A stretch of 31,475 nt of DNA, from the IMG/VR virus record IMGVR_UViG_3300020595_000123, positions 1 to 31,475 of that record; one strand, given 5' to 3'. The notes under the pieces are model-generated. The model did not search any database. It was not told the origin of the DNA and saw only the letters and a program-made list of their open reading frames with translations. The translations under genes were made by a program, and so were the position numbers. This document shows positions 827 to 25,961 of this stretch, piece after piece (the first letter of the stretch is position 1; each line of letters begins with the position of its first letter). The DNA is from a virus.

Positions 827-858
827 TTATTTAAATATACAACCTTTTTTTTATATTA

Positions 859-1464
859 TCACTCTTGATAAAATTGAAGATAATTAAATCTTAAAAACTT
901 TCCTAAACCATTAATTTGTAAATTTTTCTCTACAAATCCAATTTGTTTTGCATTTATTTGTCTAACATTTTCTTTTTCACCTGAGATAACCCATATTAAA
1001 GGCACTTGAAGGTATAAAGAAGAAGATAAAGAATCATTAAAATTAGAGACACTTACTTCAATATATAAATTTTGGTTTGATTTTTTAACAAAATATCTAG
1101 TAAATTCACCATTATTAATATCATCTTGGGTTAAAATAGGATAATATGAGACTGGGGTATATGGGGTTTCATTTCTGGAAGCACCGGTGATTATACTGTA
1201 ACGGGAATTGTAAGGTAAAAAACGTGGGTCTTGATTTCCTAATTCATCCCCTTCATCAAAAGATGGGGTTGGTTTTCTTTTAATAGTGGGGTTAGGTAAA
1301 GGAATTAATTCTAAATTAGGGCCATCATTAGGTTCTTTCCCACTAAAACTTTTACCATCTGAGGTGTTAAAGTAAGGGCCAGTGTAAGGTTTTTTTGTAG
1401 CAAGTTCTGCAAGAGTACCATTGCTATAAAATCCAGTTTGTATTTGGTTTTTAGGATAGTACAT
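859..1464 (-). CDS. Hypothetical virion structural protein, 201 aa
   Basis: I take ATG 1464-1462 (MYYPKNQIQTG) as the start. It sits one base after the stop codon of the upstream hub gene. A longer frame reaching 1569 would overlap that gene by about 100 bases and add an unlikely hydrophobic leader. The protein begins with a phrase rich in Tyr and Gly (TKKPYTGPYFNTSDGKSF), a style I associate with small virion proteins of marine phages. A Pro-rich middle and a beta-rich C-terminus (LYIEVSVSNF, LYLQVPLIWVIS) follow. There are no membrane segments and no enzymatic motifs. As the last gene of the baseplate cluster it is probably a baseplate or tail accessory protein. I do not recognise a named family. 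Confidence 0.7.
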   Translation of the reverse strand: MYYPKNQIQTGFYSNGTLAELATKKPYTGPYFNTSDGKSFSGKEPNDGPNLELIPLPNPTIKRKPTPSFDEGDELGNQDPRFLPYNSRYSIITGASRNETPYTPVSYYPILTQDDINNGEFTRYFVKKSNQNLYIEVSVSNFNDSLSSSLYLQVPLIWVISGEKENVRQINAKQIGFVEKNLQINGLGKFLRFNYLQFYQE

Positions 1465-1465
1465 A

Positions 1466-10734: not shown

Positions 10735-12480
10735 TTACGCTGGGAAAGTAGCTCCCGTTGGTAATACGTTAAAGTCTAAGTAAATGAATTCTGCTGTTTT
10801 AGTAGGTTGTAAGTAAATAGCACCTACTAATTGGTTTCTATCAATTACATCCGGAGTATTATTGCTATCATCCATTACTACTTTGAAAGCATATAAACCT
10901 TGTCTTTGTTGAACTGTTTCTAGATATGGGTTTACTGCTGCTAAGAAATTATTTCTTGTAGCTGCTGTGTTTTGTTCAAATACTAATGTTTGAGCAACTT
11001 GTCCAATGTAAGATTTAAGAGCAATTAATAATCTTCTAACATTTACTCTATCAAGCGCGGAAGCTTGTTTTTGTAATGTTTTCTGACCGTATACTACTGT
11101 TCCTGTTCCTGGGAATGATGCAATTGGGTTGATATTTGCTTCATATAAAGTATCTCTATTACCTTGAGATAATTTTCTTTCAGGGCGAATTACGTTAGTT
11201 AATCCTCCTCTGTTGATACCCGCTGGAGCAAACCATGGCTCGCTTACACTGTCGTTAAATGCGTAAACTCCCCCCATCATTGTTGATGCTGGTACGAAAA
11301 CATTTTTACCTGAATCTGGTTCGAATGTTTGTAACCAAGGCCAGTACATAGCTGCATATGAAGTATTTCTAGCATCACCTTGAGCTGTTGCATTAGCAAT
11401 AGTTGAACCATATACTACAGGATCTAAAACATAAAGATTATCTCCTCTAGTTTGTGTATTGTTTATTGCTGCTGTAGTTTGTGATGGGTGAACTTTATCA
11501 AATAATCCAGGTGTTAATAAAGCATTAAATTGGTAATCATCTTGGTTTGATAATAAATTAATCATATCAGTATAATCACTACCAATTAAACCTTGAGTTA
11601 CACCTGTAACACCTCCTGAACTAGTACCTGCTTTTTCATAGTAATTACCACCACCAGGGTATATTGAGATGTTTTTACCTTCACCACCACTAAATGAACC
11701 ATTAGAAGAACCTGAACCTAATGCTGGGATGGAACCTGTAAAGTTAGATTTTGGATCACCACCATTATTTAAATAATTTGGGGTTGCACTACCTACAGAT
11801 TTTACTCTTACATATCTAGAAGCATTAGGATATGAACCTGAAATTTCTAAATAGTTTTCTGTTGAATTATAGTTATATCTAGTATCACCTATTACTCTAG
11901 AAATAAAGTTATCTGAGTTAGGATCTAATGATAAATTATTCCATGTTTCTAAAACAATAGGGTTATCATTTCTATCATCACCTCTTCTAATTACTAATGA
12001 GAAAGTACCAGCAGATTCGTTACGAGCAACTACTTGCCATCTTACGTTATCTACTGAGCCAGAGTCTAATGAACCTGAAGTAACTGAACTAGTATTGTTA
12101 AAAATAACACCTTTATCAATAGCTTCTAAAGTAAATGAAGTACCATTACTAGAACTATCAGCAACTTCTGCTTCAGCATAATCCCATGCTGTAAGTGAGC
12201 CTGATACTACTCTAGTAACTAATAAAGTGTTACCACCATTGTTAAAGTAATTATAAGCAGCAATTGAAGTAAAATAAGTATATACTTCACTACCACTATC
12301 AAATGTAGTTCCAAATCTGTTTTGATAATCACTATAAGATGTAACTACTGTAGGTACTTCTACAGGTCCTTTTACTGCGGGACCTACAAGAGCAGCTCCT
12401 ACTTGAACTGGCTGCTGTGTGATAAATGACTGGTCATTCTCTCTTGCTAATACACCGGGTGATATTAATGTTTCTGCCAT
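10735..12480 (-). CDS. Tail sheath protein (gp18-like)
   Basis: The protein has 581 residues. The N-terminus (LISPGVLARENDQSFITQQP) and the segment VGAALVGPAVKGPVEVPTVV then SYSDYQNRFG are typical of contractile sheaths. So are NGGNTLLVTRVV and a C-terminal domain with RNTLYEANINPIASFPG-like text (here RDTLYEANINPIASF), VYGQKTLQ and ALDRVNVRRLLIALK. The middle (about residues 230-290) is a Ser/Gly-rich, probably surface-exposed insertion. The sheath contracts around the tube to drive it into the host envelope. The tail tube gene follows directly. Start ATG 12480 follows a promoter-like element by 20 bases. Confidence 0.93.
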   Translation of the reverse strand: MAETLISPGVLARENDQSFITQQPVQVGAALVGPAVKGPVEVPTVVTSYSDYQNRFGTTFDSGSEVYTYFTSIAAYNYFNNGGNTLLVTRVVSGSLTAWDYAEAEVADSSSNGTSFTLEAIDKGVIFNNTSSVTSGSLDSGSVDNVRWQVVARNESAGTFSLVIRRGDDRNDNPIVLETWNNLSLDPNSDNFISRVIGDTRYNYNSTENYLEISGSYPNASRYVRVKSVGSATPNYLNNGGDPKSNFTGSIPALGSGSSNGSFSGGEGKNISIYPGGGNYYEKAGTSSGGVTGVTQGLIGSDYTDMINLLSNQDDYQFNALLTPGLFDKVHPSQTTAAINNTQTRGDNLYVLDPVVYGSTIANATAQGDARNTSYAAMYWPWLQTFEPDSGKNVFVPASTMMGGVYAFNDSVSEPWFAPAGINRGGLTNVIRPERKLSQGNRDTLYEANINPIASFPGTGTVVYGQKTLQKQASALDRVNVRRLLIALKSYIGQVAQTLVFEQNTAATRNNFLAAVNPYLETVQQRQGLYAFKVVMDDSNNTPDVIDRNQLVGAIYLQPTKTAEFIYLDFNVLPTGATFPA

Positions 12481-12797: not shown

Positions 12798-15125
12798 TTA
12801 TTTTTTGTTATTTAATAATTTTTTTACTTCAGTAAATACTTTATTGGGGTGGATTGATTTTTGACATATATGTTGTTTATCAGTTCCTTTCCAAATAGGG
12901 CACCAATTCCAATCACCAGCATCAAATTTAAAATTAGGATTTACCCAACAAGAGTTACATACAGATTCATTACGTACTCTGGTTACTTTTGTTTGAAATT
13001 CATGTTCTTCTGAGGTAAAATTATTAATCATAACTGTACGTTTACCTAAAGCCCAATTAAACCAAGCTAACCCAGAACTAAGGCCTATAAAAGTTTCAGC
13101 ATGTAATAAATAATTAGCTACTACATCGAAGGGTTGATTCCAAGAATTAATAGTATTTGGAATATCTAATTTATCTTTACTTAAAACAACAACTTTATAA
13201 CCTGACTGGTTTAAAAGTTTAGTTAAAATTGTCCAGTACTTATAAGGCCATTCTTTACATCCTGCTGTGGATTGAGGGGAAATTACTACATATTTATCTT
13301 TAATTGGTTTAGCCTTTTTAAAAAAATTAATTCCATAGTTAACTTCTTTAAAATCTAATCCTAATATATCTGTAGCAGTTTGTTGTAATGGGAACAAATT
13401 TACTTGGTTTGGGTGTAAATTTTTATCATTCCAAAAACCATTTTCTCCTCTAAACCATCCAATTTTATATTTAGCTCTAATACCTTGAACAGATTCACCT
13501 GGGGTGGTAAATTCAATGTTTTTATATGCTTCTAACCCCTCAAACCAATCATTATGGAAGGTAGATACTACTACTTTACAGTTATGTTTTTTAGCGAATT
13601 CTACAACATAAGGGGTCCATGCTAAAGTATCACCTATAGAACTAGATTCAAGAGATATTAATACTTTTTCACCTGTTAGATCTAAAGTATCTACAATTTC
13701 ACCATTAACTTTAATAATCCATTTAGTATAATATTCTCTTCCACAAGAAGTCCACATATTTTTACCAATAGTATTACTAAAAATAGTTTTATTAGTATTA
13801 GCATCAATAAATTCTATTAAATATTGTTTATCTTCATCACCTAAAATTTCAACTTTAGGACCTTCTAAATACGAAATATGAATTTCATTAGGTTTAGGTG
13901 CTGGGAGAGTGTAGTTTTCTATAAATTCTTGGATAGTATTTTTACCAATTTCTGCTACACGATCCCAATTAAAATCTCTATGGATAATTTTAGCTTCTTC
14001 TACAGCACGTTTTTTATGATCTGTATAATTTTCAAAAGCATCACGCATTACACGAGCTAAATCTTCAAAATCAGGTTCATAATAATTTCCAGGCACATGG
14101 TTACTTTCTAACATTTTAGCATACCTAGAGTATGTATTATTACTAGTAGGTCTTTCACCTAATATTTTTACGGGAAGTCCTTTTCCTTTAGCAAATTCCA
14201 TTTGAGCAGAACATGATGAGTATATAGAAGGGGTACCACAGGCCATTGCTTCAATTAAAGGTAAATTCCATCCTTCTGCTCTAGCACATGATAAAAACAC
14301 ATGACCATTTTTTAAATATGTAATATAATCTTCTCGTGATGGGAAATGTTTAATTTTTAGTCGGGGATCTTCTAAATTAAATCCTTTAAGTCTATCTTCA
14401 GTTGTTTCAAAACCATCAATGTCTTTACCCCACATATTATCAATAGATAATATAAGATCAATTGGTTCTTCAGGTTTAAACTCTTTAAGGAAAGCTTCAA
14501 TGATTTCTTTAGTAGATTTTCTATAGTCCCAACGACCAAATAAAATAAATTTAAATCTACCATCTACGTAATCTAATGTGGTTTGGGGGTCTTCTGGGAA
14601 GAAAGTATCAACATCAACTCCTTCAGGTACAACTTTTACTTTATTAGGATCGGCACCTTGTTCAATAGTACATTGGGCTTGCCAATTTGAAGGAACCCAT
14701 AATTGGTCAAATTCACACCATTTATTAAAAAATCCTTCAGGTTGTCTTGTAGATTCCCACACATTAAACCCTATTTTAGGACCCTGGTAATTATGGTAAA
14801 AGTAATGGTGATTTGTTTCTGCTAATATTAAATTAATATTATGGTTAAAATTTTCACCATAATTACTATATATTTCTTTATCTATTAACTGGTGGTTGTT
14901 ATCAAAAACTGTTTGGGTTGAAAGGATTTTTTTATCTTGGTCTGTAAGATATTCTTCACCATTATGAGGTTCATCACTTATACCATCCCAACTATTACCA
15001 ACAGTAAAGTTTCTAAATTTTAATGGGAAGTAGTTTGAAATACCTCTAAAGAAATCACGAGTGTGGTTGTTGTATCCAGTTGTACCTACATAAGGACCAT
15101 GCCCATATATTTTTGGTTGTTTCAT
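12798..15125 (-). CDS. Two-domain glycosyltransferase: GT4 fused to TibC-like O-heptosyltransferase
   Basis: The protein has 775 residues. Residues about 100-400 form a GT4-type glycosyltransferase: VPEGVD (166-171), FGRWDYRKS (196-204), and EGWNLPLIEAMACGTP with the E-x7-E pair E284/E292. A small beta domain (about 413-480) is followed by a GT9-like domain that closely resembles bacterial autotransporter heptosyltransferases (TibC, Aah). It has SLESSSIGDTLAW with candidate catalytic D499, LQQTATDILGLDF, STAGCKEWPYKYW, and GLSSGLAWFNWALGKRTVMI (nucleotide-sugar site). It also has a four-cysteine finger, CNSC (723/726), WCP (742) and C754, matching the iron finger of TibC. TibC transfers heptose from an ADP-sugar to serines of repetitive surface proteins. 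The gene follows four Ser/Thr-rich fibre genes, so those fibres are the likely acceptors (inference). The actual sugar is unknown. Confidence 0.88.
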   Translation of the reverse strand: MKQPKIYGHGPYVGTTGYNNHTRDFFRGISNYFPLKFRNFTVGNSWDGISDEPHNGEEYLTDQDKKILSTQTVFDNNHQLIDKEIYSNYGENFNHNINLILAETNHHYFYHNYQGPKIGFNVWESTRQPEGFFNKWCEFDQLWVPSNWQAQCTIEQGADPNKVKVVPEGVDVDTFFPEDPQTTLDYVDGRFKFILFGRWDYRKSTKEIIEAFLKEFKPEEPIDLILSIDNMWGKDIDGFETTEDRLKGFNLEDPRLKIKHFPSREDYITYLKNGHVFLSCARAEGWNLPLIEAMACGTPSIYSSCSAQMEFAKGKGLPVKILGERPTSNNTYSRYAKMLESNHVPGNYYEPDFEDLARVMRDAFENYTDHKKRAVEEAKIIHRDFNWDRVAEIGKNTIQEFIENYTLPAPKPNEIHISYLEGPKVEILGDEDKQYLIEFIDANTNKTIFSNTIGKNMWTSCGREYYTKWIIKVNGEIVDTLDLTGEKVLISLESSSIGDTLAWTPYVVEFAKKHNCKVVVSTFHNDWFEGLEAYKNIEFTTPGESVQGIRAKYKIGWFRGENGFWNDKNLHPNQVNLFPLQQTATDILGLDFKEVNYGINFFKKAKPIKDKYVVISPQSTAGCKEWPYKYWTILTKLLNQSGYKVVVLSKDKLDIPNTINSWNQPFDVVANYLLHAETFIGLSSGLAWFNWALGKRTVMINNFTSEEHEFQTKVTRVRNESVCNSCWVNPNFKFDAGDWNWCPIWKGTDKQHICQKSIHPNKVFTEVKKLLNNKK

Positions 15126-15160
15126 ATATAACTTTATAATTTTAGTTGTAACTAAATGTA

Positions 15161-15182
15161 TGAAGGGGGGACTAGCCCCCCT
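15161..15182 (-). terminator. Strong GC hairpin after fibre A, terminator-like
   Basis: A 7-bp stem, AGGGGGG with CCCCCCT, encloses a 5-base loop (15171-15175). It lies just past the stop of fibre A and upstream of the glycosyltransferase gene. The sense-strand tract after the stem (TTCATACATTTAG) is a weak U-tract. It may terminate poorly, protect the 3' end, or allow read-through into the glycosyltransferase gene. Confidence 0.5.
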
Positions 15183-15191
15183 ACTTACTTT

Positions 15192-18100
15192 TTATTTTTT
15201 ATAAACTGCTTTTTCTAAAGCTTCTACTCTTTCAAGTAGTTCTTTATTTGATTGAATTAATACTGCTACTAATTTATCGTATTTAACAGCTTTATATCCA
15301 TTTTTTCTAGTAGTTACTAGTTCTGGGAACTGGGATTCAATTTCTTGGGCTATTACACCAATTTCAGTACCGGTTTTACCACTAACTTCATTCCAATCGA
15401 ATGTATAACCTCCTAATTGAGATAATTTTGCTGAAGCAGATATAATAGGTTTAATATTTTCTTTTAATCTCTTATCTGAAGAATAATAAGCAATAATATC
15501 ACCACCTACTCTTAATTCTTGAGCTGTAGTACCTGTTACATAATCTAATTCGTTAGCACCATCTCTATATATGGTATTCCCGGATCCATCCGCCATAATA
15601 ACGCGGTATGCTGTATTGGCAGCAGCTGATGTAATACTAAAGCTGTTACCTGATGAACCTGAAGTTCCTGAAGAACCTGATGAACCATTGTTACCATTGT
15701 TACCATTGTTTCCTGAGTTTCCTGAGCTACCTGAAGTACCTGATGAACCACTTGAACCATCGTTACCATCGTTACCATTGTTTCCGCTGTTACCCGAGCT
15801 ACCTGAAGTACCTGATGAACCACTTGAACCATCGTTACCATCGTTACCATCGTTTCCTGAGTTTCCTGAAGTACCTGAAGAGCCTGATGAGCCTGAGTTT
15901 CCTGAAGTACCTGATGAACCACTTGAACCATCGTTACCATCGTTTCCTGAGTTTCCTGAAGTACCTGATGAACCACTTGAACCATCGTTACCATCGTTTC
16001 CTGAGTTTCCTGAAGTACCTGATGAACCACTTGAACCATCGTTACCATCGTTACCATCGTTTCCTGAGTTTCCTGAAGTACCTGATGAACCACTTGAACC
16101 ATCGTTACCATCGTTACCATCGTTTCCTGAGTTTCCTGAAGTACCTGATGAACCTGATGAGCCTGAGTTTCCTGAAGTACCTGATGAACCTGATGAGCCT
16201 GAGTTTCCTGAAGTACCTGAGCTACCTGAGCTACCTGAGTTTCCTGATGAGCCTGAAGTACCTGAGCTACCTGAGGTACCTGATGAACCTGATGAGCCTG
16301 AAGTACCAGAATTACCTGAAACACCTGATGAACCTGATGTACCAGATGAACCTGATGAACCTGAATTACCTGAACTACCAGAAGTACCTGAGCTGCCTGA
16401 TGTACCTGAAGAACCTGAAGAACCTGATGAACCATTGTTACCATTGTTTCCTGAGTTTCCTGAGCTACCTGAAGTGCCAGATGAGCCTGAAGAACCTGAT
16501 GAACCATTGTTACCGTTGTTTCCTGAGTTTCCTGAACTACCTGAAGTGCCAGATGAGCCTGAAGAACCTGATGAACCATTGTTACCGTTGTTTCCTGAGT
16601 TTCCTGAGCTGCCTGATGTACCTGAAGAACCTGATGAACCATTGTTACCATTGTTTCCTGAGTTTCCTGAACTACCTGAGGTACCAGATGAGCCTGAGGT
16701 ACCAGATGAGCCTGAAGAACCTGATGAACCATTGTTACCGTTGTTTCCTGAGTTTCCTGAGCTACCTGAAGTGCCAGATGAGCCTGAAGTACCGCTTGAA
16801 CCTGAGCTACCTGAGTTACCTGAATTACCAGATGAGCCTGATGTACCTGAAGAGCCTGAGGTACCAGATGAGCCTGAAGAACCTGATGAACCATTGTTAC
16901 CATTGTTTCCTGAGTTTCCTGAGCTACCTGAAGTACCACTTGAACCTGAACTACCTGAGTTACCTGAATTACCAGATGACCCTGATGTACCAGATGAGCC
17001 TGATGTTCCTGAACTACCTGATGAACCTGAGTTACCTGAGTTACCTGATGAACCTGAAGTACCTGAGCTACCTGATGTACCAGATGAACCTGATGAACCT
17101 GAAGAGCCTGAGTTACCTGAGTTACCTGATGAGCCTGAAGTACCTGAGCTACCTGAGGTACCAGATGAACCTGATGAGCCTGAAGAACCCGAGTTACCTG
17201 ATGAGCCTGAAGTGCCAGATGAACCTGAAGTGCCAGATGAACCTGATGAGCCTGAAGATCCTGAGTTACCAGATGAGCCTGAAGTACCTGAACTACCTGA
17301 AGTACCGGATGAGCCTGATGAACCTGAAGAACCCGAGTTACCTGATGAGCCTGAGGTACCAGATGAGCCTGAAGTACCTGAGCTACCTGAGCTACCTGAG
17401 CTACCTGAGTTACCTGAACTACCAGAAGTACCTGAACTACCTGAAGTGCCTGATGAGCCTGAAGATCCTGAGGTACCAGATGAGCCTGAAGAGCCTGAAG
17501 AGCCTGAGTTACCTGATGAGCCTGATGTACCAGATGAGCCTGATGTACCAGATGAGCCTGATGTACCAGATGAGCCTGAAGAGCCTGAAGAGCCTGAGTT
17601 ACCTGATGAGCCTGAAGTACCAGATGAGCCTGAAGTACCTGAGCTACCTGAGCTACCTGAGCTACCTGAGCTACCTGAGTTACCAGATGAGCCTGAAGTA
17701 CCAGATGAGCCTGATGAGCCTGAGTTACCTGATGAACCTGAAGTACCTGATGATCCAGATGTTCCTGAGCTACCAGAAGTACCTGAGCTACCGCTTGAGC
17801 CTGAGTTACCTGATGAACCTGAAGTGCCAGATGAACCTGAAGTACCGGATGAGCCTGATGAACCTGAGTTACCTGAATTACCTGATGAACCTGAAGTACC
17901 GGATGAGCCTGATGAACCTGAGTTACCTGAAGTACCAGATGAGCCTGAAGTACCAGATGAGCCTGAAGTACCCGAGCTACCACTTGAACCACTATTTCCT
18001 GAAGAACCTGAAGTACCTGAGCTACCAGAAGTACCTGAGCTGCCTGAAGTGCCTGATGAACCTGATGAGCCTGAAGTACCAGATGAACCAGATGAGCCTG

Positions 18101-19247
18101 AAGTACCAGCTACACCAGAAGTACCTGATGAACCTGATGTACCTGATGAGCCTGATGTACCTGATGAGCCTGATGAGCCTGATGTACCCGGAGCACCACT
18201 AGTACCAGAAGTACCATCAGCTCCATTTACACCTGATAAACCTGATGTACCTGATGTACCTGATGAGCCTGATGAGCCTGATGAGCCTGATGAGCCTGAT
18301 GTACCTGCTACACCAGATGTACCTGAGCTACCTGAAGTGCCAGATGAACCTGATGAGCCTGAAGACCCTGAGTTACCTGATGAGCCTGAAGTACCAGATG
18401 AGCCTGATGAGCCTGAATTTCCTGATGTTCCTGATGAGCCTGATGAGCCTGATGAACCTGAATTACCTGAACTACCCGAAGTACCTGAAGAGCCTGATGA
18501 GCCCGAATTTCCTGAAGTACCTGATGAACCTGATGAACCTGACGTACCTGAAGAACCGGACGTGCCCGACGAACCAGATGAACCAGATGTACCTGAACTA
18601 CCTGAAGAACCTGAGTTACCTGATGTACCAGATGAGCCTGAACTACCTGAAGAACCTGAGTTACCTGATGTACCTGAACTACCAGAAGAACCTGATGAAC
18701 CAGATGTACCTGATGAACCACTTGTTCCTGAAGAACCTGATGTACCCGAGCTACCACTTGAACCACTATTTCCTGAACTACCTGATGTACCAGATGAGCC
18801 TGAAGTTCCTGATGAGCCTGAGCTACCTGAGTTACCTGAAGATCCACTTGTACCAGATGAGCCTGAAGTACCTGAGCTACCTGAAGTACCTGAGCTACCA
18901 GATGAGCCTGAAGTACCTGAAGTACCTGAAGCACCATCTACACCCGAAGTACCTGAACTACCTGATGAGCCTGAAGTACCTGATGAGCCTGAAGTACCTG
19001 ATGAGCCTGAAGTACCTGAACTACCTGAGCTACCTGAGTTACCAGATGAGCCTGAACTACCTGATGTACCTGAAGAACCTGATGTTTGAGCTGCTTCTCT
19101 ATAAGCAACTTGTCCATCAGGTTTTAATACTAATACTGTTTCTTCGGTTGAGGCTTCAGGGACTTCGCCTGGTACTATGTTTACCGATCCGCTAAATTGG
19201 GAAGAACCTGATACAATCAGGCCTTTTTTAATTTTAAATTCGTTCAT
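15192..19247 (-). CDS. Giant collagen-like tail fibre A with S74 self-cleaving chaperone
   Basis: The protein has 1351 residues. Residues 1-55 form a small beta domain (EFKIKKGLIVSGSSQ, VPEASTEETVLVLKPDGQVA) shared with fibre B, probably the attachment head. Residues about 56-1200 are unbroken Gly-X-Y triplets, mostly GSS and GTS, with GNS throughout and GNN/GND clusters towards the C-terminal end. Short breaks such as GLSGVNGADG occur. The last 150 residues hold a tip segment and an S74 intramolecular chaperone domain: SSDKRLKENI, with cleavage expected at S1257/D1258 by analogy with endosialidase, then GVIAQEIESQFPELV and a closing coiled coil. This domain trimerises the fibre and then cuts itself off. 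The protein is likely a trimeric, long, flexible adhesin. Exact repeat number may be affected by assembly of repeats. Confidence 0.9.
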   Translation of the reverse strand: MNEFKIKKGLIVSGSSQFSGSVNIVPGEVPEASTEETVLVLKPDGQVAYREAAQTSGSSGTSGSSGSSGNSGSSGSSGTSGSSGTSGSSGTSGSSGSSGTSGVDGASGTSGTSGSSGSSGTSGSSGTSGSSGTSGSSGNSGSSGSSGTSGSSGTSGSSGNSGSSGSSGTSGSSGTSGSSGTSGSSGSSGSSGTSGNSGSSGSSGSSGTSGNSGSSGSSGTSGSSGSSGTSGSSGTSGSSGSSGTSGNSGSSGSSGTSGSSGNSGSSGSSGSSGTSGNSGSSGSSGTSGSSGNSGSSGSSGSSGTSGSSGTSGVAGTSGSSGSSGSSGSSGTSGTSGLSGVNGADGTSGTSGAPGTSGSSGSSGTSGSSGTSGSSGTSGVAGTSGSSGSSGTSGSSGSSGTSGSSGTSGSSGTSGSSGNSGSSGSSGTSGSSGTSGSSGTSGNSGSSGSSGTSGSSGNSGNSGSSGSSGTSGSSGTSGSSGNSGSSGSSGTSGSSGTSGSSGTSGSSGNSGSSGSSGTSGSSGNSGSSGSSGSSGSSGTSGSSGTSGSSGNSGSSGSSGSSGTSGSSGTSGSSGTSGSSGNSGSSGSSGSSGTSGSSGSSGTSGSSGTSGSSGNSGSSGSSGSSGTSGSSGTSGSSGNSGSSGSSGSSGTSGSSGTSGSSGNSGSSGSSGSSGTSGSSGTSGSSGNSGSSGSSGSSGTSGSSGTSGSSGNSGNSGSSGSSGSSGTSGSSGTSGSSGNSGNSGSSGSSGTSGSSGTSGSSGNSGNSGSSGSSGTSGSSGNSGNNGNNGSSGSSGSSGTSGSSGTSGSSGNSGNSGSSGSSGTSGSSGTSGSSGNSGNNGNNGSSGSSGSSGTSGSSGTSGSSGNSGNNGNNGSSGSSGTSGSSGNSGNNGNNGSSGSSGSSGTSGSSGNSGNNGNNGSSGSSGSSGTSGSSGNSGNNGNNGSSGSSGSSGTSGSSGTSGSSGNSGSSGSSGTSGSSGVSGNSGTSGSSGSSGTSGSSGTSGSSGNSGSSGSSGTSGNSGSSGSSGTSGNSGSSGSSGTSGNSGNDGNDGNDGSSGSSGTSGNSGNDGNDGNDGSSGSSGTSGNSGNDGNDGSSGSSGTSGNSGNDGNDGSSGSSGTSGNSGSSGSSGTSGNSGNDGNDGNDGSSGSSGTSGSSGNSGNNGNDGNDGSSGSSGTSGSSGNSGNNGNNGNNGSSGSSGTSGSSGNSFSITSAAANTAYRVIMADGSGNTIYRDGANELDYVTGTTAQELRVGGDIIAYYSSDKRLKENIKPIISASAKLSQLGGYTFDWNEVSGKTGTEIGVIAQEIESQFPELVTTRKNGYKAVKYDKLVAVLIQSNKELLERVEALEKAVYKK
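15648..19082 (-). repeat. Gly-X-Y coding repeat array of fibre A
   Basis: About 3.4 kb of 9-base triplet units encode Gly-Ser-Ser, Gly-Thr-Ser, Gly-Asn-Ser, Gly-Asn-Asn and Gly-Asn-Asp. Synonymous codon differences (GGT/GGA, TCA/AGT) are scattered through it, so the array is conserved as protein more than as DNA. It leaves long stop-free frames on both strands. Confidence 0.95.
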
Positions 19248-19296
19248 CGTTTATTTTTCTGTTTTCATTTCCAACAGGTAATTCCGTTATGTCTGG

Positions 19297-19306
19297 TATA
19301 CATATT
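19297..19306 (-). promoter_or_regulatory. Candidate promoter element (sense AATATGTATA)
   Basis: This G variant of the element lies about 50 bases before the fibre A ATG (19247) and just after the fibre B terminator. Confidence 0.45.
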
Positions 19307-19314
19307 ATAATAAT

Positions 19315-19349
19315 ATAGAAAAAACAAAGTGCCCCTCAATGAGGGGCAC
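19315..19349 (-). terminator. Rho-independent terminator after fibre B
   Basis: A perfect 9-bp stem, GTGCCCCTC with GAGGGGCAC (19329-19337 with 19341-19349), encloses an AAT loop. The sense-strand tract TTTGTTTTTT follows. Confidence 0.93.
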
Positions 19350-19373
19350 CTTTCTTTATAGTAAAGCTATTTA

Positions 19374-21488
19374 TTAAGCTTTAAGTCTAGTATTATGGAA
19401 TACTACTCTAATTGTACTACCTGTACTATTACTTACTGTTAAGGCAAAATTACCTCCACCTGAAGTCACATTAAATACAATTCCATCTGTATTACCAATA
19501 TCTGTAGTACTACTTTCAGCTAAAACAGCACCTGTTGAATTAGCAGTTATCCTTACAGTACCCGTACGTTGATGGGATCTATCTGTACTATAAGCTACAT
19601 AGTCTAAAATTAAACCAGTATATGTAGTTCCACTAATAGAAGGTTGAATATTACCATCAGCACCATTAGCGACTTCAATTCTATCTGAGGTGGTTTCTAA
19701 ATACTCACCTACAGTAAGAACATCTGTAGTAGCATCAAACGTTAAGTTTGGTTGTGCTGTACCACTAGTACCATTAGAATTATCTACAGTGATAAGTCTA
19801 TTAGTATCTGGTGTAGATAAATTAATTAACCCTGATGTACCACTTGAACCTGATGATCCTGAAGTACCAGATGAACCTGAACTACCTGATGATCCTGAAG
19901 TACCAGATGAACCTGAACTACCTGATGATCCAGATGTACCAGATGAACCTGATGTACCTGAACTACCTGATGTACCTGAAGAACCTGAGCTACCTGATGT
20001 ACCTGAAGAACCTGAGCTACCTGATGTACCTGAACTTCCTGATGTACCTGAGCTTCCTGATGAGCCTGAACTACCAGATGTGCCTGATGAACCAGATGAA
20101 CCAGCGCTTCCTGAGGTACCTGAGCTTCCTGATGAGCCTGAAGTACCTGAGCTACCTGAAGTACCTGATGAGCCTGAAGAACCTGAAGTACCGCTTGAAC
20201 CTGAACTACCTGATGTACCAGATGAGCCTGAAGTACCAGATGAGCCTGATGAACCTGAAGTACCTGATGAACCTGAAGATCCTGAAGTACCTGAACTACC
20301 AGATGTGCCTGAAGAACCTGAAGATCCTGAGCTGCCTGATGTGCCTGAACTACCTGATGAGCCTGAACTACCAGATGTGCCTGATGAACCAGATGAACCA
20401 GCACTTCCTGAAGTACCTGAGCTACCTGAACTACCAGATGTACCAGATGATCCTGATGTACCTGAACTACCAGATGAACCAGATGTGCCTGAGCTACCTG
20501 AAGAACCTGATGATCCTGAAGTACCTGATGATCCTGAAGTACCTGATGAACCTGAAGTACCTGATGAACCTGAACTACCTGCGCTTCCTGAAGTACCTGA
20601 ACTACCTGAAGAACCTGAAGTACCTGAAGAACCTGAAGTACCAGATGAACCTGAAGAACCTGATGATCCTGAAGTACCTGATGAACCTGAACTACCTGCG
20701 CTTCCTGAAGTACCTGATGAACCTGAAGAACCTGATGATCCTGAAGTACCTGATGAACCTGAGCTACCTGCGCTTCCTGAAGTACCTGATGAACCTGAAG
20801 AACCTGAAGTACCTGAGCTACCAGATGTGCCTGAGCTACCAGATGTACCAGATGAGCCTGATGAGCCTGATGAACCTGATGTACCTGAAGATCCTGAACT
20901 ACCTGCGCTTCCTGAAGTACCTGAACTACCTGAAGAACCTGAAGTACCTGATGAACCTGAAGTACCTGATGAACCTGATGTACCAGAAGAACCAGATGAG
21001 CCTGAACTACCTGATGTACCTGAGCTACCCGATGAACCAGCACTTCCTGAAGTACCTGAACTACCTGAAGAACCTGAGCTACCTGATGTACCTGAAGAAC
21101 CTGAGCTACCTGATGTACCAGATGAACCTGATGTACCAGATGAACCTGATGTGCCTGATGAACCAGATGAGCCTGATGTTCCTGATGAACCAGATGAACC
21201 CGATGAACCTGATGTACCTGAAGATCCTGAACTACCAGAAGTACCCGAACTACCTGAAGAACCTGAAGTACCACTTGAGCCTGAGCTGCCTGATGTGCCT
21301 GAACTACCTGATGAACCTGAAGTTTGTGCTGATTCTCTGTAGGCTACTTGACCTGTTGATGTGAGCACTAAAACAGTTTCCTCTGTAGGGGCTTCAGGAA
21401 CATTACCTGGAACAATAAATACTGAACCTGATAACTGTGAAGAGCCGGATACTATGAGACCCTTCCTGATTTTAAATTCGTTAGCCAT
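19374..21488 (-). CDS. Collagen-like tail fibre B
   Basis: The protein has 704 residues. The first 56 (EFKIRKGLIVSGSSQ, VPEAPTEETVLVLTSTGQVA) are clearly paralogous to the head of fibre A. Residues about 57-553 are Gly-X-Y triplets, nearly all GSS and GTS, with occasional GSA. The C-terminal 151 residues form a beta-rich tip (LTFDATTDVLTVGEYL, YTGLILDYVAYSTD, RTGTVRITANSTG). It is related to the tip of fibre C and has no S74 chaperone. The shared head suggests that A and B occupy the same or equivalent docking sites, as alternative or mixed fibres (inference). ATG 21488 is the only sensible start. Confidence 0.88.
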   Translation of the reverse strand: MANEFKIRKGLIVSGSSQLSGSVFIVPGNVPEAPTEETVLVLTSTGQVAYRESAQTSGSSGSSGTSGSSGSSGTSGSSGSSGTSGSSGSSGTSGSSGSSGSSGTSGSSGSSGTSGSSGTSGSSGTSGSSGSSGTSGSSGSSGSSGTSGSAGSSGSSGTSGSSGSSGSSGTSGSSGTSGSSGTSGSSGSSGTSGSAGSSGSSGTSGSSGSSGSSGTSGSSGTSGSSGTSGSSGSSGTSGSAGSSGSSGTSGSSGSSGSSGTSGSAGSSGSSGTSGSSGSSGSSGTSGSSGTSGSSGSSGTSGSAGSSGSSGTSGSSGTSGSSGTSGSSGSSGSSGTSGSSGSSGTSGSSGTSGSSGSSGTSGSAGSSGSSGTSGSSGSSGSSGTSGSSGSSGSSGTSGSSGTSGSSGSSGTSGSSGSSGTSGSSGTSGSSGSSGTSGSSGSSGTSGSSGTSGSSGSSGTSGSAGSSGSSGTSGSSGSSGSSGTSGSSGTSGSSGSSGTSGSSGSSGTSGSSGTSGSSGTSGSSGSSGSSGTSGSSGSSGSSGTSGSSGSSGTSGLINLSTPDTNRLITVDNSNGTSGTAQPNLTFDATTDVLTVGEYLETTSDRIEVANGADGNIQPSISGTTYTGLILDYVAYSTDRSHQRTGTVRITANSTGAVLAESSTTDIGNTDGIVFNVTSGGGNFALTVSNSTGSTIRVVFHNTRLKA
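19830..21320 (-). repeat. Gly-X-Y coding repeat array of fibre B
   Basis: About 1.5 kb of 9-base units encode mostly Gly-Ser-Ser and Gly-Thr-Ser, with Gly-Ser-Ala at irregular intervals. The unit length keeps the frame under any change in copy number. Confidence 0.95.
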
Positions 21489-21522
21489 AGAGAATTTGTG
21501 TTGTTTTTTAAATTATTTTAAC

Positions 21523-21535
21523 GTTAATAAATATA
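21523..21535 (-). promoter_or_regulatory. Weak candidate promoter element (sense TATATTTATTAAC)
   Basis: A diverged copy of the recurrent element lies about 35 bases before the fibre B ATG (21488), in the short gap after the fibre C stop. Confidence 0.35.
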
Positions 21536-21546
21536 TATAAAACTAG

Positions 21547-23388
21547 TTATCTTTCAATTAAATTTGTAAAGGATTTTACAGTAACATTATACCCACTTCC
21601 ACTACCATTATCTACTGTAAGTACAGCATTAGTACCTGTAGAAGCCGTGAATGTAATTGCATCTGTTGCGTTATTTAAATCTGTACTTGTAACCTCATCT
21701 ATAATAATAGATGAAGAATCAAATATAGCTCTTATAGTACCAAATCTAGCTCTACCATCATTACCTAGTAAAGTGTAATCTACTACCATTCCTAAATAAT
21801 TTGCTGTTGGGACTGAAACTAGGTTACCAGTATTACCATCCGTAACTGTAATTTCTGAAGTTCTTCTTTCAAATTCAGTATTTTGGGTTAATATAGTACC
21901 ATCAAATGTTAAAGCACTTTCACCATTAATAGTATCTGTACCTGTAGCTGTTAATATATTATTATCAGTATTATTAGTAATAGTAGCTGAACCTGAACTA
22001 CCACTTGTACCTGAACTACCTGAGCTACCATCTATACCTGAAGTACCTGATGAGCCTGAGCTACCATCTATACCTGAAGTACCTGAACTCCCACTAGAAC
22101 CACTGGTTCCAGATGAACCAGAAGTACCTGATGAACCTGAACTACCATCTGCTCCTGAGGTACCTGAAGAACCACTTGAACCATCTATACCTGAAGTACC
22201 GCTTGAGCCTGAAGATCCATCTAAACCTGAAGTTCCTGATGAACCTGAACTACCACTTGTGCCTGAAGAACCACTTGAACCATCAGTACCTGAAGTACCT
22301 GATGAACCAGATGAACCGTCTAAACCTGAAGTTCCTGATGAACCTGAACTACCACTTGTGCCTGAAGAACCACTTGAACCATCAGCACCTGAAGTACCTG
22401 ATGAGCCTGAAGAACCTGAAGTACCCGAACTACCTGATGAGCCTGATGTACCTGATGAACCACTTGAACCTGATGTACCTGAAGAGCCTGATGAACCAGA
22501 CGTACCTGAGCCACCACCGCCTCCACCATCAATACGCACTATTACGCCAGTTGAACCACTAGCATCTACTTGGACACCCGAACCACTGAAGTTAATAATA
22601 GCATTGTTTTTAGATACAAGAGATCCAGTTTGGAGAATATCTGTTTTTACTAAATCATCAAAAAAGTTTACAGTTTCAATTTGGAAACCCGCTACTTCTT
22701 GACCAACATTTAAGTTATTTAAGTTAGTAACTGCTCTACTAAAAATAGGAGCTAAACCATCATTTGCAGTTAATTCTACAAGAGGAGTTGCTTGTACAGA
22801 CTCATATAATTCATCTCCACTATCAGCTTGAGATCCTGATTCACCCCATGTTACATAAAGGGATGCTTCATTACCACCAGCATTTCTACCAGTAATTTCT
22901 GATATAGTATATTTATGGAATCTACCATTAATAATTGTTTGTTCAGAATTAGCAGCTTGACCTAAAATAGCATAAGTAGGAGTATCAGTATAAATAGATT
23001 CATCACTACCAGTAATATTTCTAAAATCCGGATCTGTATTATTTGGGCTTTGTAAAGAAGCGGAGGCTATGTAATAATCTCCTGCAGCAGGAGAAATTCT
23101 AGCTAAGCCTTGTGATTCTGATGTTGCAGGAAGAGAGGCTACTGTAATAGTTTGAGCACCTACATCTACTCCTGTAATTTCTACTCCTGAGGAAAAAGCT
23201 GATGATTCTACTAGTTGTTGTCCTACACGGATGTTAGCTAAACCTAAGTATCCACTAACATCAGTTACATTAGTTAATGTGGTAGAATCAGTTGTAGCAT
23301 CAAATCTAACTCTAATATATGAATTACTTCCATTACCAATAGGGTTAGAAAAATTTTCAATTTTTCCGTAAAATAATTGTTGTGACAT
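21547..23388 (-). CDS. Collagen-like tail fibre C with long N-terminal domain
   Basis: The protein has 613 residues. The N-terminal 287 residues are non-repetitive and beta-rich (FYGKIENFSNPIGNGSNSYI, YYIASASLQSPNN, GRFHKYTISEIT) and unlike the heads of A and B. A Gly-rich hinge (RIDGGGGGGSG) leads into a short Gly-X-Y array (about 288-466) in which GSS-GSS-GTS blocks alternate with GxD spacers (GLD, GID, GAD, GTD). The C-terminal 147 residues (ESALTFDGTILTQNTEFERR, NYLGMVVDYTLLGND, ARFGTIRAIFDSSS) align in order with the tip of fibre B. The long head suggests a different docking place, or a structural base for the fibre. No chaperone domain is present. Confidence 0.86.
   Translation of the reverse strand: MSQQLFYGKIENFSNPIGNGSNSYIRVRFDATTDSTTLTNVTDVSGYLGLANIRVGQQLVESSAFSSGVEITGVDVGAQTITVASLPATSESQGLARISPAAGDYYIASASLQSPNNTDPDFRNITGSDESIYTDTPTYAILGQAANSEQTIINGRFHKYTISEITGRNAGGNEASLYVTWGESGSQADSGDELYESVQATPLVELTANDGLAPIFSRAVTNLNNLNVGQEVAGFQIETVNFFDDLVKTDILQTGSLVSKNNAIINFSGSGVQVDASGSTGVIVRIDGGGGGGSGTSGSSGSSGTSGSSGSSGTSGSSGSSGTSGSSGSSGTSGADGSSGSSGTSGSSGSSGTSGLDGSSGSSGTSGTDGSSGSSGTSGSSGSSGTSGLDGSSGSSGTSGIDGSSGSSGTSGADGSSGSSGTSGSSGTSGSSGSSGTSGIDGSSGSSGTSGIDGSSGSSGTSGSSGSATITNNTDNNILTATGTDTINGESALTFDGTILTQNTEFERRTSEITVTDGNTGNLVSVPTANYLGMVVDYTLLGNDGRARFGTIRAIFDSSSIIIDEVTSTDLNNATDAITFTASTGTNAVLTVDNGSGSGYNVTVKSFTNLIER
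21991..22527 (-). repeat. Gly-X-Y coding repeat array of fibre C
   Basis: About 0.54 kb is organised as blocks of GSS GSS GTS separated by GLD, GID, GAD or GTD. It is the shortest of the four arrays. Confidence 0.93.
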
Positions 23389-23445
23389 CTATATTGTAAT
23401 TGTATTATTAAATAATACTGTTCTTCACTCTTCCAAACAGGGTTT

Positions 23446-23456
23446 ATTATAAATAT
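23446..23456 (-). promoter_or_regulatory. Candidate promoter element (sense ATATTTATAAT)
   Basis: This element directly follows the fibre D terminator and lies about 57 bases before the fibre C ATG (23388). Confidence 0.45.
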
Positions 23457-23484
23457 GAAAAAAAGCCCCTCAAATGAGGGGCTC
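23456..23484 (-). terminator. Rho-independent terminator after fibre D
   Basis: An 8-bp stem, AGCCCCTC with GAGGGGCT (23464-23471 with 23476-23483), encloses an AAAT loop. A sense-strand run of seven T follows. Confidence 0.93.
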
Positions 23485-23508
23485 TTAAACATTTAATTAA
23501 ACTGTTTT

Positions 23509-25590
23509 TTAAAATTGTAAGTTATAAATAATATTATCAAATATATCTAAACCACCTGTAACTGAATACACATTATGGTTACCTGTTGTGCTAAATTGAA
23601 CAGTTGTATTACCAATATTAGCTGCATTACTCGCAGATAAATCATGTGCTCTTACTTGAGGAGGTACTCTTGTTGCTAGTGAGTTATTACCACCGGCACC
23701 ATTTGATAAGGCATTTGAAGGTACAGTAACAACTACAGATGAATCTGACATTGTATCAATAAAGTGAGTAAGTGACATTAACTGACAATTACCTGCAGAT
23801 GGAGATTCTAATGTTAAAGCTGTATCAGTAAGTGAAGAAACATCAAACGCTGGGATATAAGCACCTTCTGTACCCGAGGTGCCACCTGAATCTGCTACTG
23901 TAACAGTAAAGGTATTTGTATTACTTACAGTTACTTCTAAATAACTATAATCTACACTCATATTTCTAATTACAACAAAGTCGCCTGATGTTAATCCGTG
24001 AGATGCTTTGGTTACTGTTAAAGTTGTACTTGAACGAGACCAACTTAATCCACCTTCTACATTACCTGAAGACATTACTGTAACTGTATTATCACCACCT
24101 GTTACTTGGTATCTAATTACTGGGTTGTAAGAGGCACCACCACCACCACCAGAAGCAGCATCTACCCATTCTGTGTTATAATTTGTACCATCAATCTTAG
24201 CTAATACTTGAGAAGTTGTACCACCTACAGGAACACCTTGTCCTGAAGTACCTGAGCTACCTGATGAACCAGCTGCACCTGAAGTACCTGAGCTACCTGA
24301 TGAACCAGCTGCACCTGAAGTACCTGAGCTACCTGAGCTGCCATCTATCCCTGAAGTACCTGAGCTACCTGAACTACCGTCTGTACCTACACCTGAAGTA
24401 CCTGAGCTACCTGATGAACCTGCACTTCCTGAGGTACCAGATGAGCCTGATGAACCATCATTACCATCGTTACCATCTATACCAGAAGTACCTGAGCTAC
24501 CTGAGCTACCATTTATACCCGATGTACCCGAAGAACCACTTGAGCCATCAGCACCTGAAGTACCTGATGAACCTGAACTACCGTCTGTACCTACACCTGA
24601 TGTACCAGATGAGCCTGATGAACCTGCACTTCCTGAGGTGCCAGATGAACCTGATGAACCATCATTACCGTCTATACCAGAAGTACCTGAGCTACCTGAT
24701 GAACCATCTATACCCGATGTACCAGAAGAACCGCTTGAACCATCAGCACCTGAAGTACCTGATGAGCCTGAACTACCGTCTGTACCTACACCTGAAGTAC
24801 CTGAGCTACCTGATGAACCTGCACTTCCTGAGGTACCTGAAGAACCAGATGAACCGTCGTTACCGTCGTTACCATCTGTACCAGAAGTGCCAGATGAGCC
24901 GGATGAACCATCTATACCCGATGTACCAGAAGAACCGCTTGAACCATCAGCACCTGAAGTACCTGAGCTACCTGAACTACCGTCTGTACCTACACCTGAG
25001 GTACCAGATGAGCCTGATGAACCATCATTACCGTCTATACCTGAGGTACCAGATGAGCCTGATGAACCATCATTACCGTCTATACCTGAGGTACCAGATG
25101 AGCCTGATGAACCATCATTACCGTCTATACCTGAAGTACCTGAAGAACCACTTGAACCATCAGCACCTGAAGTACCTGATGAACCACTTGAACCATCTAC
25201 TCCTGAAGTACCTGAACTACCTGAGCTGCCTGATGTACCTGATGAACCTGATGAACCGTCGTTACCATCTATACCTGAGGTACCTGATGAGCCTGATGAA
25301 CCAGCTATACCTGAAGTACCAGATGAGCCTGATGAGCCATCTACTCCTGAGGTACCTGAACTACCTGAACTACCGTCTGTACCTACACCTGAAGTACCTG
25401 ATGAACCCGATGAACCTGATGAACCACTGCCACCTCCACCACCGGAGCCAACAGCTATAATGTTACCATTTGATTCTTTTAAAAATAGACCTTCGTCTCC
25501 TAATGAACCAGAAGAAAAAATTGCAACATTCCCATTTGCTGGGTTTGTTACATTGCTTCCGGAAGTATTTAATAAATTTATTTGAGCCAC
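23509..25590 (-). CDS. Collagen-like tail fibre D (GTG start)
   Basis: The protein has 693 residues. It starts at GTG 25590, with no ATG nearby and a promoter-like element 14 bases upstream. Residues 1-50 form a short head (INLLNTSGSNVTNPANGNVA, LFLKESNGNIIAVG) ending in a Gly hinge. Residues about 51-449 are Gly-X-Y blocks, GSS GSS GTS, spaced by GVD, GID-GND, GAD or GVGTD and arranged in higher-order repeats of about 200 bases. The C-terminal 244 residues begin with GGTTSQVLAKIDGTNYNTEW, a phrase common in phage fibre proteins. They continue as a beta-rich domain (SHGLTSGDFVVIRN, NTFTVTVADSGG) that may carry the receptor tip. It is the first fibre gene after the neck cluster. Confidence 0.88.
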   Translation of the reverse strand: MAQINLLNTSGSNVTNPANGNVAIFSSGSLGDEGLFLKESNGNIIAVGSGGGGGSGSSGSSGSSGTSGVGTDGSSGSSGTSGVDGSSGSSGTSGIAGSSGSSGTSGIDGNDGSSGSSGTSGSSGSSGTSGVDGSSGSSGTSGADGSSGSSGTSGIDGNDGSSGSSGTSGIDGNDGSSGSSGTSGIDGNDGSSGSSGTSGVGTDGSSGSSGTSGADGSSGSSGTSGIDGSSGSSGTSGTDGNDGNDGSSGSSGTSGSAGSSGSSGTSGVGTDGSSGSSGTSGADGSSGSSGTSGIDGSSGSSGTSGIDGNDGSSGSSGTSGSAGSSGSSGTSGVGTDGSSGSSGTSGADGSSGSSGTSGINGSSGSSGTSGIDGNDGNDGSSGSSGTSGSAGSSGSSGTSGVGTDGSSGSSGTSGIDGSSGSSGTSGAAGSSGSSGTSGAAGSSGSSGTSGQGVPVGGTTSQVLAKIDGTNYNTEWVDAASGGGGGASYNPVIRYQVTGGDNTVTVMSSGNVEGGLSWSRSSTTLTVTKASHGLTSGDFVVIRNMSVDYSYLEVTVSNTNTFTVTVADSGGTSGTEGAYIPAFDVSSLTDTALTLESPSAGNCQLMSLTHFIDTMSDSSVVVTVPSNALSNGAGGNNSLATRVPPQVRAHDLSASNAANIGNTTVQFSTTGNHNVYSVTGGLDIFDNIIYNLQF
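24244..25440 (-). repeat. Gly-X-Y coding array of fibre D with higher-order repeats
   Basis: About 1.2 kb. The spacer that encodes GVGTDG recurs near 24385, 24590, 24785, 24985 and 25380. Each is followed by similar ordered blocks, so larger units of about 200 bases, or twice that, have duplicated. Confidence 0.9.
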
Positions 25591-25646: not shown

Positions 25647-25961
25647 TTAATTTTCATCTCCTCCAACTTCAATAAAACCACTATTAATTATAGTGCCTTG
25701 ATTTTCTAAAAAATCCCCTACATATAATTGAGAATCGGCACGAATTACTTGACCATCCGGGAGTTCTACTTCTGATCCAATTTCCATAATTAAAGTACCA
25801 GCTACTGTTAATCTATATGTAGAAATACTGGTATTAGCTGAAACTCTATAAGTTTGACCTGGGAGGATAATTCTTGGTATTACTGCACCAGAAGCACTAT
25901 CATTACCTCCAGTCTGGAAAGCTGATACTGCTACATTATCTAAAAATCTAACATTTGCCAT
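25647..25961 (-). CDS. Small beta-rich protein, 104 aa, coupled to gp15-like gene
   Basis: The protein starts MANVRFLDNVAVSAFQTGG. It is made of short strands (SISTYRLTVAGTLIMEIGSE, LENQGTIINSGFIEVGG) like a small beta-helix or decoration domain. Its ATG overlaps the stop of the gp15-like gene (TAATG), so it is made together with the neck and tail completion proteins. It is the last gene before the four fibres. A fibre-attachment or virion-surface role is possible but only suggested by position. I do not recognise a family. Confidence 0.65.
   Translation of the reverse strand: MANVRFLDNVAVSAFQTGGNDSASGAVIPRIILPGQTYRVSANTSISTYRLTVAGTLIMEIGSEVELPDGQVIRADSQLYVGDFLENQGTIINSGFIEVGGDEN

Follow-up and report, generated by a model that had tools for sequence, protein, structure and literature searches.

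A fusion glycosyltransferase of a marine T4-like phage that probably modifies the collagen-like fibres encoded beside it

The stretch of DNA studied here (the window, meaning the whole 31,475 bases of the IMG/VR virus record IMGVR_UViG_3300020595_000123) is a fragment of a marine T4-like phage with a contractile tail. On its minus strand lie, in this order, the genes for a 324-residue protein, a 104-residue protein, four fibres, a 775-residue enzyme, an 83-residue protein and the tail sheath. Fibre F1 and the enzyme are encoded 66 bases apart on the same strand. The enzyme joins a GT4 half to a TibC-like half and is probably a protein O-glycosyltransferase with which the phage modifies its own collagen-like fibres. 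The original prediction had proposed that the phage O-glycosylates its fibres, and its coordinates for the four fibre genes and the downstream enzyme, all on the minus strand, were right throughout (Table 1).

The window was assigned to the T4-like contractile-tailed phages because the Gp23 capsid protein, PhoH and the sheath scored above the Pfam cut-offs and a T4 baseplate match was seen below the cut-off. The isolates closest by capsid are Flavobacterium phage immuto (52.7% identity) and Microcystis phage Mel-JY01 (49.7%), and because of these neighbours a host among the Bacteroidota is likely. Megablast found no close copy of the stretch in the named phage and plasmid collections, and no tRNA gene was found in the window.

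Table 1. Features of the window, with positions from its first base
Feature	Position	Strand	Evidence
GT4-TibC fusion glycosyltransferase, 775 residues	12798..15125	-	TIGR04414 232.1 bits (cut-off 200); PF00534 35.4 bits (cut-off 26.4); AlphaFold pLDDT 83.6, pTM 0.57
GT4 half (residues 1-408), by similarity a retaining GT-B fold	13902..15125	-	PF00534; phrog_2170 (glycosyltransferase) E 3.1e-30; VIA Z 26.0 to 3oy2
TibC/BAHT half, residues 412-770	12816..13892	-	phmmer to TibC chains 4rb4/4rap E 5e-36; Foldseek E 5.8e-28; VIA Z 37.0
Iron-finger cysteines C723, C726, C742, C754	12864..12959	-	alignment to TibC Cys339/342/358/370
Fibre F1, collagen-like, 1351 residues, S74 tip, 382 triplets	15192..19247	-	PF01391 E 2.6e-162; PF13884 E 4.5e-16
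F1 Gly-X-Y repeat span, residues 57-1202	15642..19079	-	
F1 Peptidase_S74 intramolecular chaperone, residues 1257-1312	15312..15479	-	Pfam
Fibre F2, collagen-like, 704 residues, 166 triplets	19374..21488	-	PF01391 E 9.9e-72
Fibre F3, collagen-like, 613 residues, 58 triplets	21547..23388	-	PF01391 E 1.6e-22
Fibre F4, collagen-like, 693 residues, GTG start, 124 triplets	23509..25590	-	PF01391 E 4.7e-47
Tail sheath, downstream anchor of the survey	10735..12480	-	PF04984, PF17482
324-residue gene, 'neck' by position only, upstream anchor of the survey	25961..26935	-	no Pfam match; in relatives also kept next to fibres or sheath

The four fibres together contain 730 Gly-X-Y triplets, and their X and Y positions hold 1039 serines, 204 threonines, one proline and no lysine. 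The Gly-Ser-Ser and Gly-Thr-Ser repeats that had been predicted are present; what had gone unrecognised is that they stand in the collagen register, along with GNS and GID triplets. All four fibres passed the Pfam Collagen model, and these matches, with the fixed Gly-X-Y register, ruled out chance or simple low complexity as an explanation of the repeats. Since there is only one proline in 730 triplets, the stability of an unmodified triple helix is doubtful from the composition of the chains, and the fibres look like candidates for stabilisation by glycans. Glycosylation is listed among the stabilisers of collagen in PMC3368898 (citing 'Sweet is stable'), and in a vent worm collagen cited in PMC6953826 glycosylated threonine takes the place of 4-hydroxyproline. 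The GC content of the repeats is almost 50%, compared with about 31% elsewhere. The repeats also create long antisense open frames, which we take for composition artefacts. One of them, a frame of 1172 codons at 15571-19089 on the plus strand, lies antisense to F1, has Pro-Glu-Leu/Val-Pro codons and could mislead annotation; it is probably a by-product of how Gly and Ser are encoded.

In the enzyme, the TibC/AAH heptosyltransferase model TIGR04414 covers residues 413-770 and PF00534 covers residues 189-313, both above their cut-offs, which confirmed the two predicted halves. The model for lipopolysaccharide (LPS) heptosyltransferase I scored 27.6 bits on the enzyme and PF01075 scored 34.8 bits. 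The structural likeness to TibC that had been expected was borne out: residues 413-775 of the AlphaFold model superimposed on TibC 22-391 with a root mean square deviation of 2.1 over 350 residues, and Foldseek agreed with the VIA result. The half has an N-terminal beta-barrel, a GT-B core and an iron finger. We took the functional residues of TibC from PMC4358343, where the enzyme is described as modifying serines in repetitive Escherichia coli surface proteins. D499, T620, K624 and W688 of the phage enzyme correspond to D110 (the catalytic base), T226, K230 and W305 of TibC. In an alignment of 82 phage TibC domains, with near-copies included and filled columns counted, the aspartate was found in 79 of 79, threonine or serine in 81 of 81, the lysine in 81 of 81 and the tryptophan in 82 of 82, and each iron-finger cysteine was present in 77 of 81. 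Four GT4-TibC fusions (L031 to L034) have all four of these cysteines replaced and retain the catalytic residues. The position that governs donor stereoselectivity, Pro300 in TibC and Ser294 in AAH, is Ser683 here, as in AAH. By these residues, the enzyme probably performs a TibC-like sugar transfer.

The first 405 residues have a GT4-type fold, and the best VIA match is the glycosyltransferase 3oy2 of the chlorella virus PBCV NY2A; apart from TibC, the VIA list tests mainly this part of the enzyme. In relatives, TibC can also be a stand-alone protein of about 400 residues, and GT4 is then encoded by its own gene immediately upstream. A GT4 type of 317 residues was present in 12 loci and is fused to TibC in a 735-kb phage, and a third GT4 type is fused to TibC in the group of L046. 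No strong BLAST matches were found among these different types. Because TibC has been linked repeatedly to different GT4s, by fusion or as a neighbour, the arrangement supports a joint action of both, with the order not told, and fits the two-step glycan of the original prediction.

The co-occurrence of the enzyme with collagen was then surveyed in relatives. IMG/VR was scanned with the enzyme (49 loci, five of them matching in the TibC half only), with the sheath (the best 80 of at least 600 matches) and with the neck protein (the best 80 of 344). Among the loci anchored by the sheath that have 5 kb or more of upstream DNA, collagen was found in 12 of 19 with TibC and in 0 of 13 without it (p 4e-4). 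With 1.5 to 5 kb upstream, it was found in 0 of 9 loci with TibC and, as a weak stretch, in 1 of 15 without (L128). In total, a sheath together with 5 kb or more of upstream DNA was available at 61 loci; 22 of these had both TibC and collagen, 27 neither, 11 TibC only and one collagen only (Fisher p 1.6e-7). In all 11 loci with TibC only, the stretch stops upstream at the contig end, so the fibre region may have been cut off. Two of them, L017 and L069, stand for a single contig, and another, L014, starts inside a short Pro-type collagen that was missed by the run filter. When 30 records, mostly chosen by the enzyme, were searched whole, TIGR04414 was found in 29 (28 above the cut-off) and collagen in 22; G002, G004, G010, G012, G017, G025, G028 and immuto had none.

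A second test used contigs of about 20 kb or more that can span the locus from neck to sheath. From 160 rows of the sheath and neck scans, 42 such contigs were obtained, with two already-searched records left out, and 29 of them contain the sheath. Where a contig carried the neck gene as well as the sheath gene, collagen was present in 6/6 with TibC, as against 1/20 without TibC. The six are G030, G062 and G064 from the sheath and neck scans and the window, G016 and G075, which were found with the enzyme. Among the 20, collagen scored above the cut-off in G040, and G043 had one weak match. The counts include near-copies such as G052/G053 and G054/G055/G056. We set aside 11 TibC-free records that have collagen above the cut-off and lack the sheath, where the enzyme slot may lie off the contig, and the TibC-bearing records without neck G059 (no collagen), G060 and G065 (both with collagen). 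Of the two isolates closest by capsid, Mel-JY01 has both the TibC enzyme and collagen, in another gene order, and immuto has neither. The survey of enzyme against fibres in related phages thus came out in favour of the original proposal.

The Mel-JY01 record (L051) begins with a collagen frame of 162 triplets on the plus strand (2-3049) that is hardly annotated; the annotated minus-strand genes at 1-651 and 739-2298 lie opposite to it and are perhaps antisense artefacts. The recorded host of this phage is a cyanobacterium, and its capsid groups with the Flavobacterium-phage-like set, so the host label may need a check. A scan of genomes gave eight further loci. L218 and L222 have the enzyme with Ser/Thr-type collagen; L219, L220, L221 and L224 have TibC with no collagen call on the available stretch, and in L224 there is a small open reading frame (ORF) with a short GTS run. 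Collagen was found elsewhere in two of the bins of these four loci, which is of little weight. TibC is absent from L223 and L225. The contigs of L219 and L223, with GT4-TibC or GT4 genes, had been binned into archaeal metagenome genomes, and L219 may be a misbinned phage or a fragment of a sugar island.

Two types of collagen occur in the loci with TibC, a Ser/Thr type and a Pro type with GPI, GPQ, GPK or GAQ triplets, and in the Pro-type loci additional genes lie between the fibres and TibC. One encodes a 2OG-Fe(II) oxygenase of 205 residues, and each of the 13 aligned sequences has the HxD...H...R residues; the two that were scanned matched Pfam 2OG-FeII_Oxy_3, and the nearest solved relatives are PKHD-type hydroxylases (E 5e-11) and prolyl 4-hydroxylase (P4H, E 1e-4). 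Another encodes a 784-residue protein (10 aligned, two of them partial) in which GT4 is followed by GT25 and lysyl hydroxylase (LH). Its positions 351-552 resemble procollagen galactosyltransferase 1 (9evj, E 3.9e-21, range 3.3e-21 to 4.7e-21) and its positions 607-796 resemble procollagen lysyl hydroxylase (PLOD3, E 7.6e-29; mimivirus L230, 6ax6, E 2.2e-28), an assignment from sequence profiles, since the last 100 residues of the AlphaFold model have a pLDDT under 50. The GT4-GT25-LH chain was found at L029:5426-7777 and in L023, L024, L045, L058, L061, L068, L072 and L073, and its gene directly follows Pro/Lys-type collagen fibres where the contig includes these. LH was found in 15 and GT25 likewise in 15 of 92 loci with TibC, duplicates included and the loci not all identical.

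We compared the enzymes with the residues of the fibres in 35 loci that have TibC and collagen; six known duplicate loci were dropped and near-copies remain. A P4H-like enzyme was present in 8/8 loci of the Pro type and in 0/27 of the Ser/Thr type. Lysyl hydroxylase was found in six of the seven loci with more than 0.015 Lys per triplet and in none of the other 28. The exception among the seven is L214 (3 Lys), and L058 passes the threshold with 2 Lys in 63 triplets; among the 28, L037 has five lysines and L050 one. The Pro-type loci without lysine, L016 and L121, have no lysyl hydroxylase. The LH, GT25 and P4H models had no match in 134 TibC-free loci, many of which do not span the region, nor in the window, which is a fragment. 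Placing the Pro type on the TibC tree takes five changes, at least three of them forced. At L016 (4275-9996, from collagen to TibC), genes for DUF6445, a GT2, a carbamoyltransferase, a second GT2-like protein and UDP-galactopyranose mutase were seen, which suggests a more elaborate glycan at that locus.

It could be objected that the Pro-type loci, with as little as 0.09 Ser/Thr per triplet, offer TibC no Ser/Thr fibres. This was countered by upstream DNA. Among the seven Pro-type phages with further upstream DNA (G014, G016, G018, G020, G030, G060 and G065), five carry Ser/Thr-type fibres as well, whereas for G018 and G020 the contig stops within Pro-type fibres; TibC therefore retains Ser targets in the Pro-type phages that can be judged. 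One near relative of the window is G030 (130 kb; neck 87%, sheath 82%). It has four Ser/Thr fibres and two Pro/Lys fibres with GT25, LH and P4H, and the GT4-TibC enzyme is kept. Its fibres match the end domains of F4 at 93% and 59%, the N-terminal domain of F3 at 61%, the C-terminal domain of F2 at 41% and the N-termini of F1 and F2 at 45%. The S74 tip of F1 had no match in G030; it shares 45-51% identity with the tips of L014 and L016, which sit on Pro-type shafts with the oxygenase present, and 47% with that of L006 on a Ser/Thr-type shaft without oxygenase.

Taken together, it is likely that the 775-residue enzyme O-glycosylates the phage's own collagen-like fibres, because TIGR04414 is matched above the cut-off, the catalytic residues are in place, the gene lies next to the fibres, enzyme and collagen co-occur, and in relatives the enzyme set matches the residues of the fibres. 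The original proposal of self-glycosylation thus stands in part, through the TibC half, the survey and the GT4 link, with the acceptor corrected to collagen-like triplets. The acceptors in the window would be serine and perhaps threonine.

Several observations weigh against this reading. At the position of TibC Arg286, which contacts the donor adenine and is required for TibC activity (PMC4358343), the window enzyme has a valine (V669), and the other fusions of the window type have V, I, T or L there, except L035. Over the 82 phage domains the position is V in 29, T in 24, R in 16, I in 11 and L in 2. Arginine occurs in domains of the stand-alone kind, in cut ORFs, in L094 and in L035 as the one GT4 fusion; 15 of these 16 have no window-type GT4 half in the available ORF. 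The beta-hairpin thumb with Phe265/Val266, required for the active TibC dodecamer according to PMC4358343, is deleted in the window enzyme, leaving a gap of 8 residues to TibC and of 11 columns to the stand-alone phage TibCs. In the 26 of 82 rows that were inspected, it is deleted in the window and most fusions, of intermediate length in L034, L036, L040 and L051, and of TibC-like length in the stand-alone proteins and L035. Because the arginine is a valine and the dodecamer thumb is deleted, the donor nucleotide and the oligomer cannot be assumed from TibC; with the valine at the adenine contact, the ADP-heptose of the original prediction is unsure, and without the thumb a TibC-type dodecamer is unlikely. 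The enzyme is a variant of the TIGR04414 family that fails two TibC hallmarks, and not a standard heptosyltransferase of that family. TibC itself modified Ser, not Thr, and on a beta-helix substrate rather than on collagen (PMC4358343).

The survey also contains contrary cases. The enzyme without such fibres was met once, in LR756504, a 636-kb phage with a far TibC homologue and no Pfam collagen. Two fragments are possible further cases: the 37-kb record of L036, which has a sugar-gene island, no collagen and a score below the TIGR04414 cut-off, and L094 (4306-5391), whose TibC-like match ends before the iron finger and which has no collagen in 5.7 kb; the close sheath relative of L094, L085, has no TibC. 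Conversely, collagen without TibC was found in L154 (G040), and the TibC-free L128, with short upstream DNA, has a weak stretch of 13 triplets. The collagen of L154 (13315-19278) is of the GSQ/GTT type, and the slot that elsewhere holds TibC is occupied by an unknown 327-residue protein and a protein with TPR and FkbM matches below the cut-off. The GT25 domain occurs also in L218, where the collagen is of the Ser/Thr type and free of lysine. The lysine threshold was chosen after the values had been seen, and the loci on which the P4H, LH and GT25 models were tested had also served to build them. After correction for the tree, two to three of three to five pairs went the same way for TibC and collagen and none or one the opposite way, the rest being undecided, which is not significant; the oxygenase followed the Pro type in three of three independent pairs (p 0.25). 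Neither comparison has enough independent evolutionary changes to reach significance.

Glycosyltransferases in the fibre region of marine T4-like phages are usually read as altering host surface glycans (PMC7029224). By that account the enzyme would act on the LPS or capsule, for example to block superinfection, and would lie next to the fibres as part of a host-recognition island. TibC is indeed related to LPS heptosyltransferases, as the PF01075 score shows, and sugar genes such as the mutase of L016 occur in relatives. The enzyme nevertheless scores far higher with TIGR04414 than with LPS heptosyltransferase I, and the presence of collagen together with the match of hydroxylase and procollagen galactosyltransferase to Pro and Lys points to a protein as the substrate of the island, so we regard an action on host glycans as unlikely. 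It is more unlikely still that the sugars go to some other protein of the virion (capsid, sheath or tube) with the fibres as bystanders: mycobacteriophages have glycans on capsid and tail tube (cited in PMC12619734) and the enzyme gene directly precedes the sheath gene block, yet TibC tracks collagen whereas the sheath is present in 61 of 61 loci, with or without TibC. That collagen fibres and glycosyltransferases are merely a swapped cassette without action on each other is hardly credible, even though the tree-corrected tests are too small to counter shared inheritance, because both genes occur in different groups (T4-like relatives including Mel-JY01, the L046/L048/L050 records, where 0 of 10 window structural proteins were matched on the available stretches, and the 735-kb phage), enzyme content follows residue content, and fibre tips related to those of the window sit on Ser/Thr shafts without P4H or on Pro shafts with P4H.

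If the enzyme acts on the fibres, we infer the following course. The fibre chains would be made in the infected cell and modified as single chains before they trimerise, as the animal collagen enzymes work ahead of trimerisation (PMC8968730). The TibC half would move a sugar, most likely heptose from a host-made nucleoside diphosphate heptose, onto the serine (perhaps the threonine) of GSS and GTS triplets, and the GT4 half would then attach a second sugar. Trimerisation would follow, with S74 and other end domains assisting. In a triple helix that is nearly free of proline, the glycans would stabilise in place of proline and hydroxyproline, and they would keep the fibre hydrated and shielded as well. 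Relatives would carry a larger set at this slot, with the P4H-like enzyme for Pro collagen and the GT4-GT25-LH fusion for Lys collagen. With little more than even confidence, we see here a modular collagen-maturation island that is picked by acceptor residue, with TibC-GT4 for Ser/Thr, the PKHD/P4H-like oxygenase for Pro and GT4-GT25-LH for Lys. It would be an animal-like pathway in bacteriophages, in which O-glycosylation has replaced proline as the stabiliser of the triple helix in the lineage of the window.

GC-rich hairpins were seen between the fibre genes and before the enzyme gene (15154-15192, 19321-19357 and 23461-23486). Two of the three are terminator-like on the minus strand, with the common core GCCCCTCA/TGAGGGGC. 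A promoter scan was uninformative (36 sites, 37.3 expected). Pfam scans of 20 proteins of the window, itself a fragment, found no autotransporter. RfaE domain II (TIGR02199), the sole heptose gene sought, was matched in 2 of 14 records, all below the cut-off. At 1466-4645 lies a tail-module protein of 1059 residues with a C-terminal M15 peptidase domain, perhaps a cell-wall-cutting hub.

The enzyme shares with TibC and AAH the family score, the fold, the catalytic Asp/Thr/Lys/Trp, the four iron-finger cysteines and the AAH-like serine; it differs in being fused to a GT4, in a phage, with the arginine lost, the thumb deleted and putative collagen-like acceptors. Mimivirus also encodes collagens and enzymes for them (the lysyl hydroxylase-glucosyltransferase L230, R655 and R699; PMC9546862, PMC9614988), and the lysyl hydroxylase domain of the phage relatives matches L230. 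In contrast, the window belongs to a bacteriophage, has a TibC-type enzyme for Ser/Thr, and no hydroxylase was found in it. Mycobacteriophages have glycosyltransferases and glycans on their own virions, as cited in PMC12619734, so that the original statement that no such phage system has been described was too wide. Their targets are capsid and tail tube, the accessible part of PMC12619734 mentions no TibC or collagen fibres, and the window comes from a metagenome record. Bacterial collagen-like proteins of the BclA type have glycans thought to aid stability (PMC8968730), but they are spore surface proteins and not phage fibres. The fibres of Escherichia coli prophages likewise have a Gly-X-Y shaft between phage fibre domains; unlike the proposed state of the window fibres, the recombinant ones tested in PMC3368898 were unglycosylated. 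The same paper states that bacteria and viruses have no collagen prolyl hydroxylases. In the open literature, partly accessible and with most subscription papers and preprints outside its scope, we found no report that ties TibC-type, lysyl-hydroxylase or procollagen-galactosyltransferase enzymes to phage collagen fibres. The proposed system would be a new form of virus self-glycosylation; TibC enzymes for autotransporters, phage collagen fibres, mimivirus collagen modification and mycobacteriophage virion glycosylation were already known.

Phage glycosyltransferases near fibres are usually read as directed against host LPS or restriction, and the alternative is a virion that modifies its own fibres. 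If this is true, it would explain how very long, nearly proline-free collagen-like fibres hold together. TibC chemistry would then reach from adhesins to phages, and enzymes of collagen hydroxylation and galactosylation would have a place in bacteriophages, which would be a source of small, bacterially adapted collagen-modifying enzymes.

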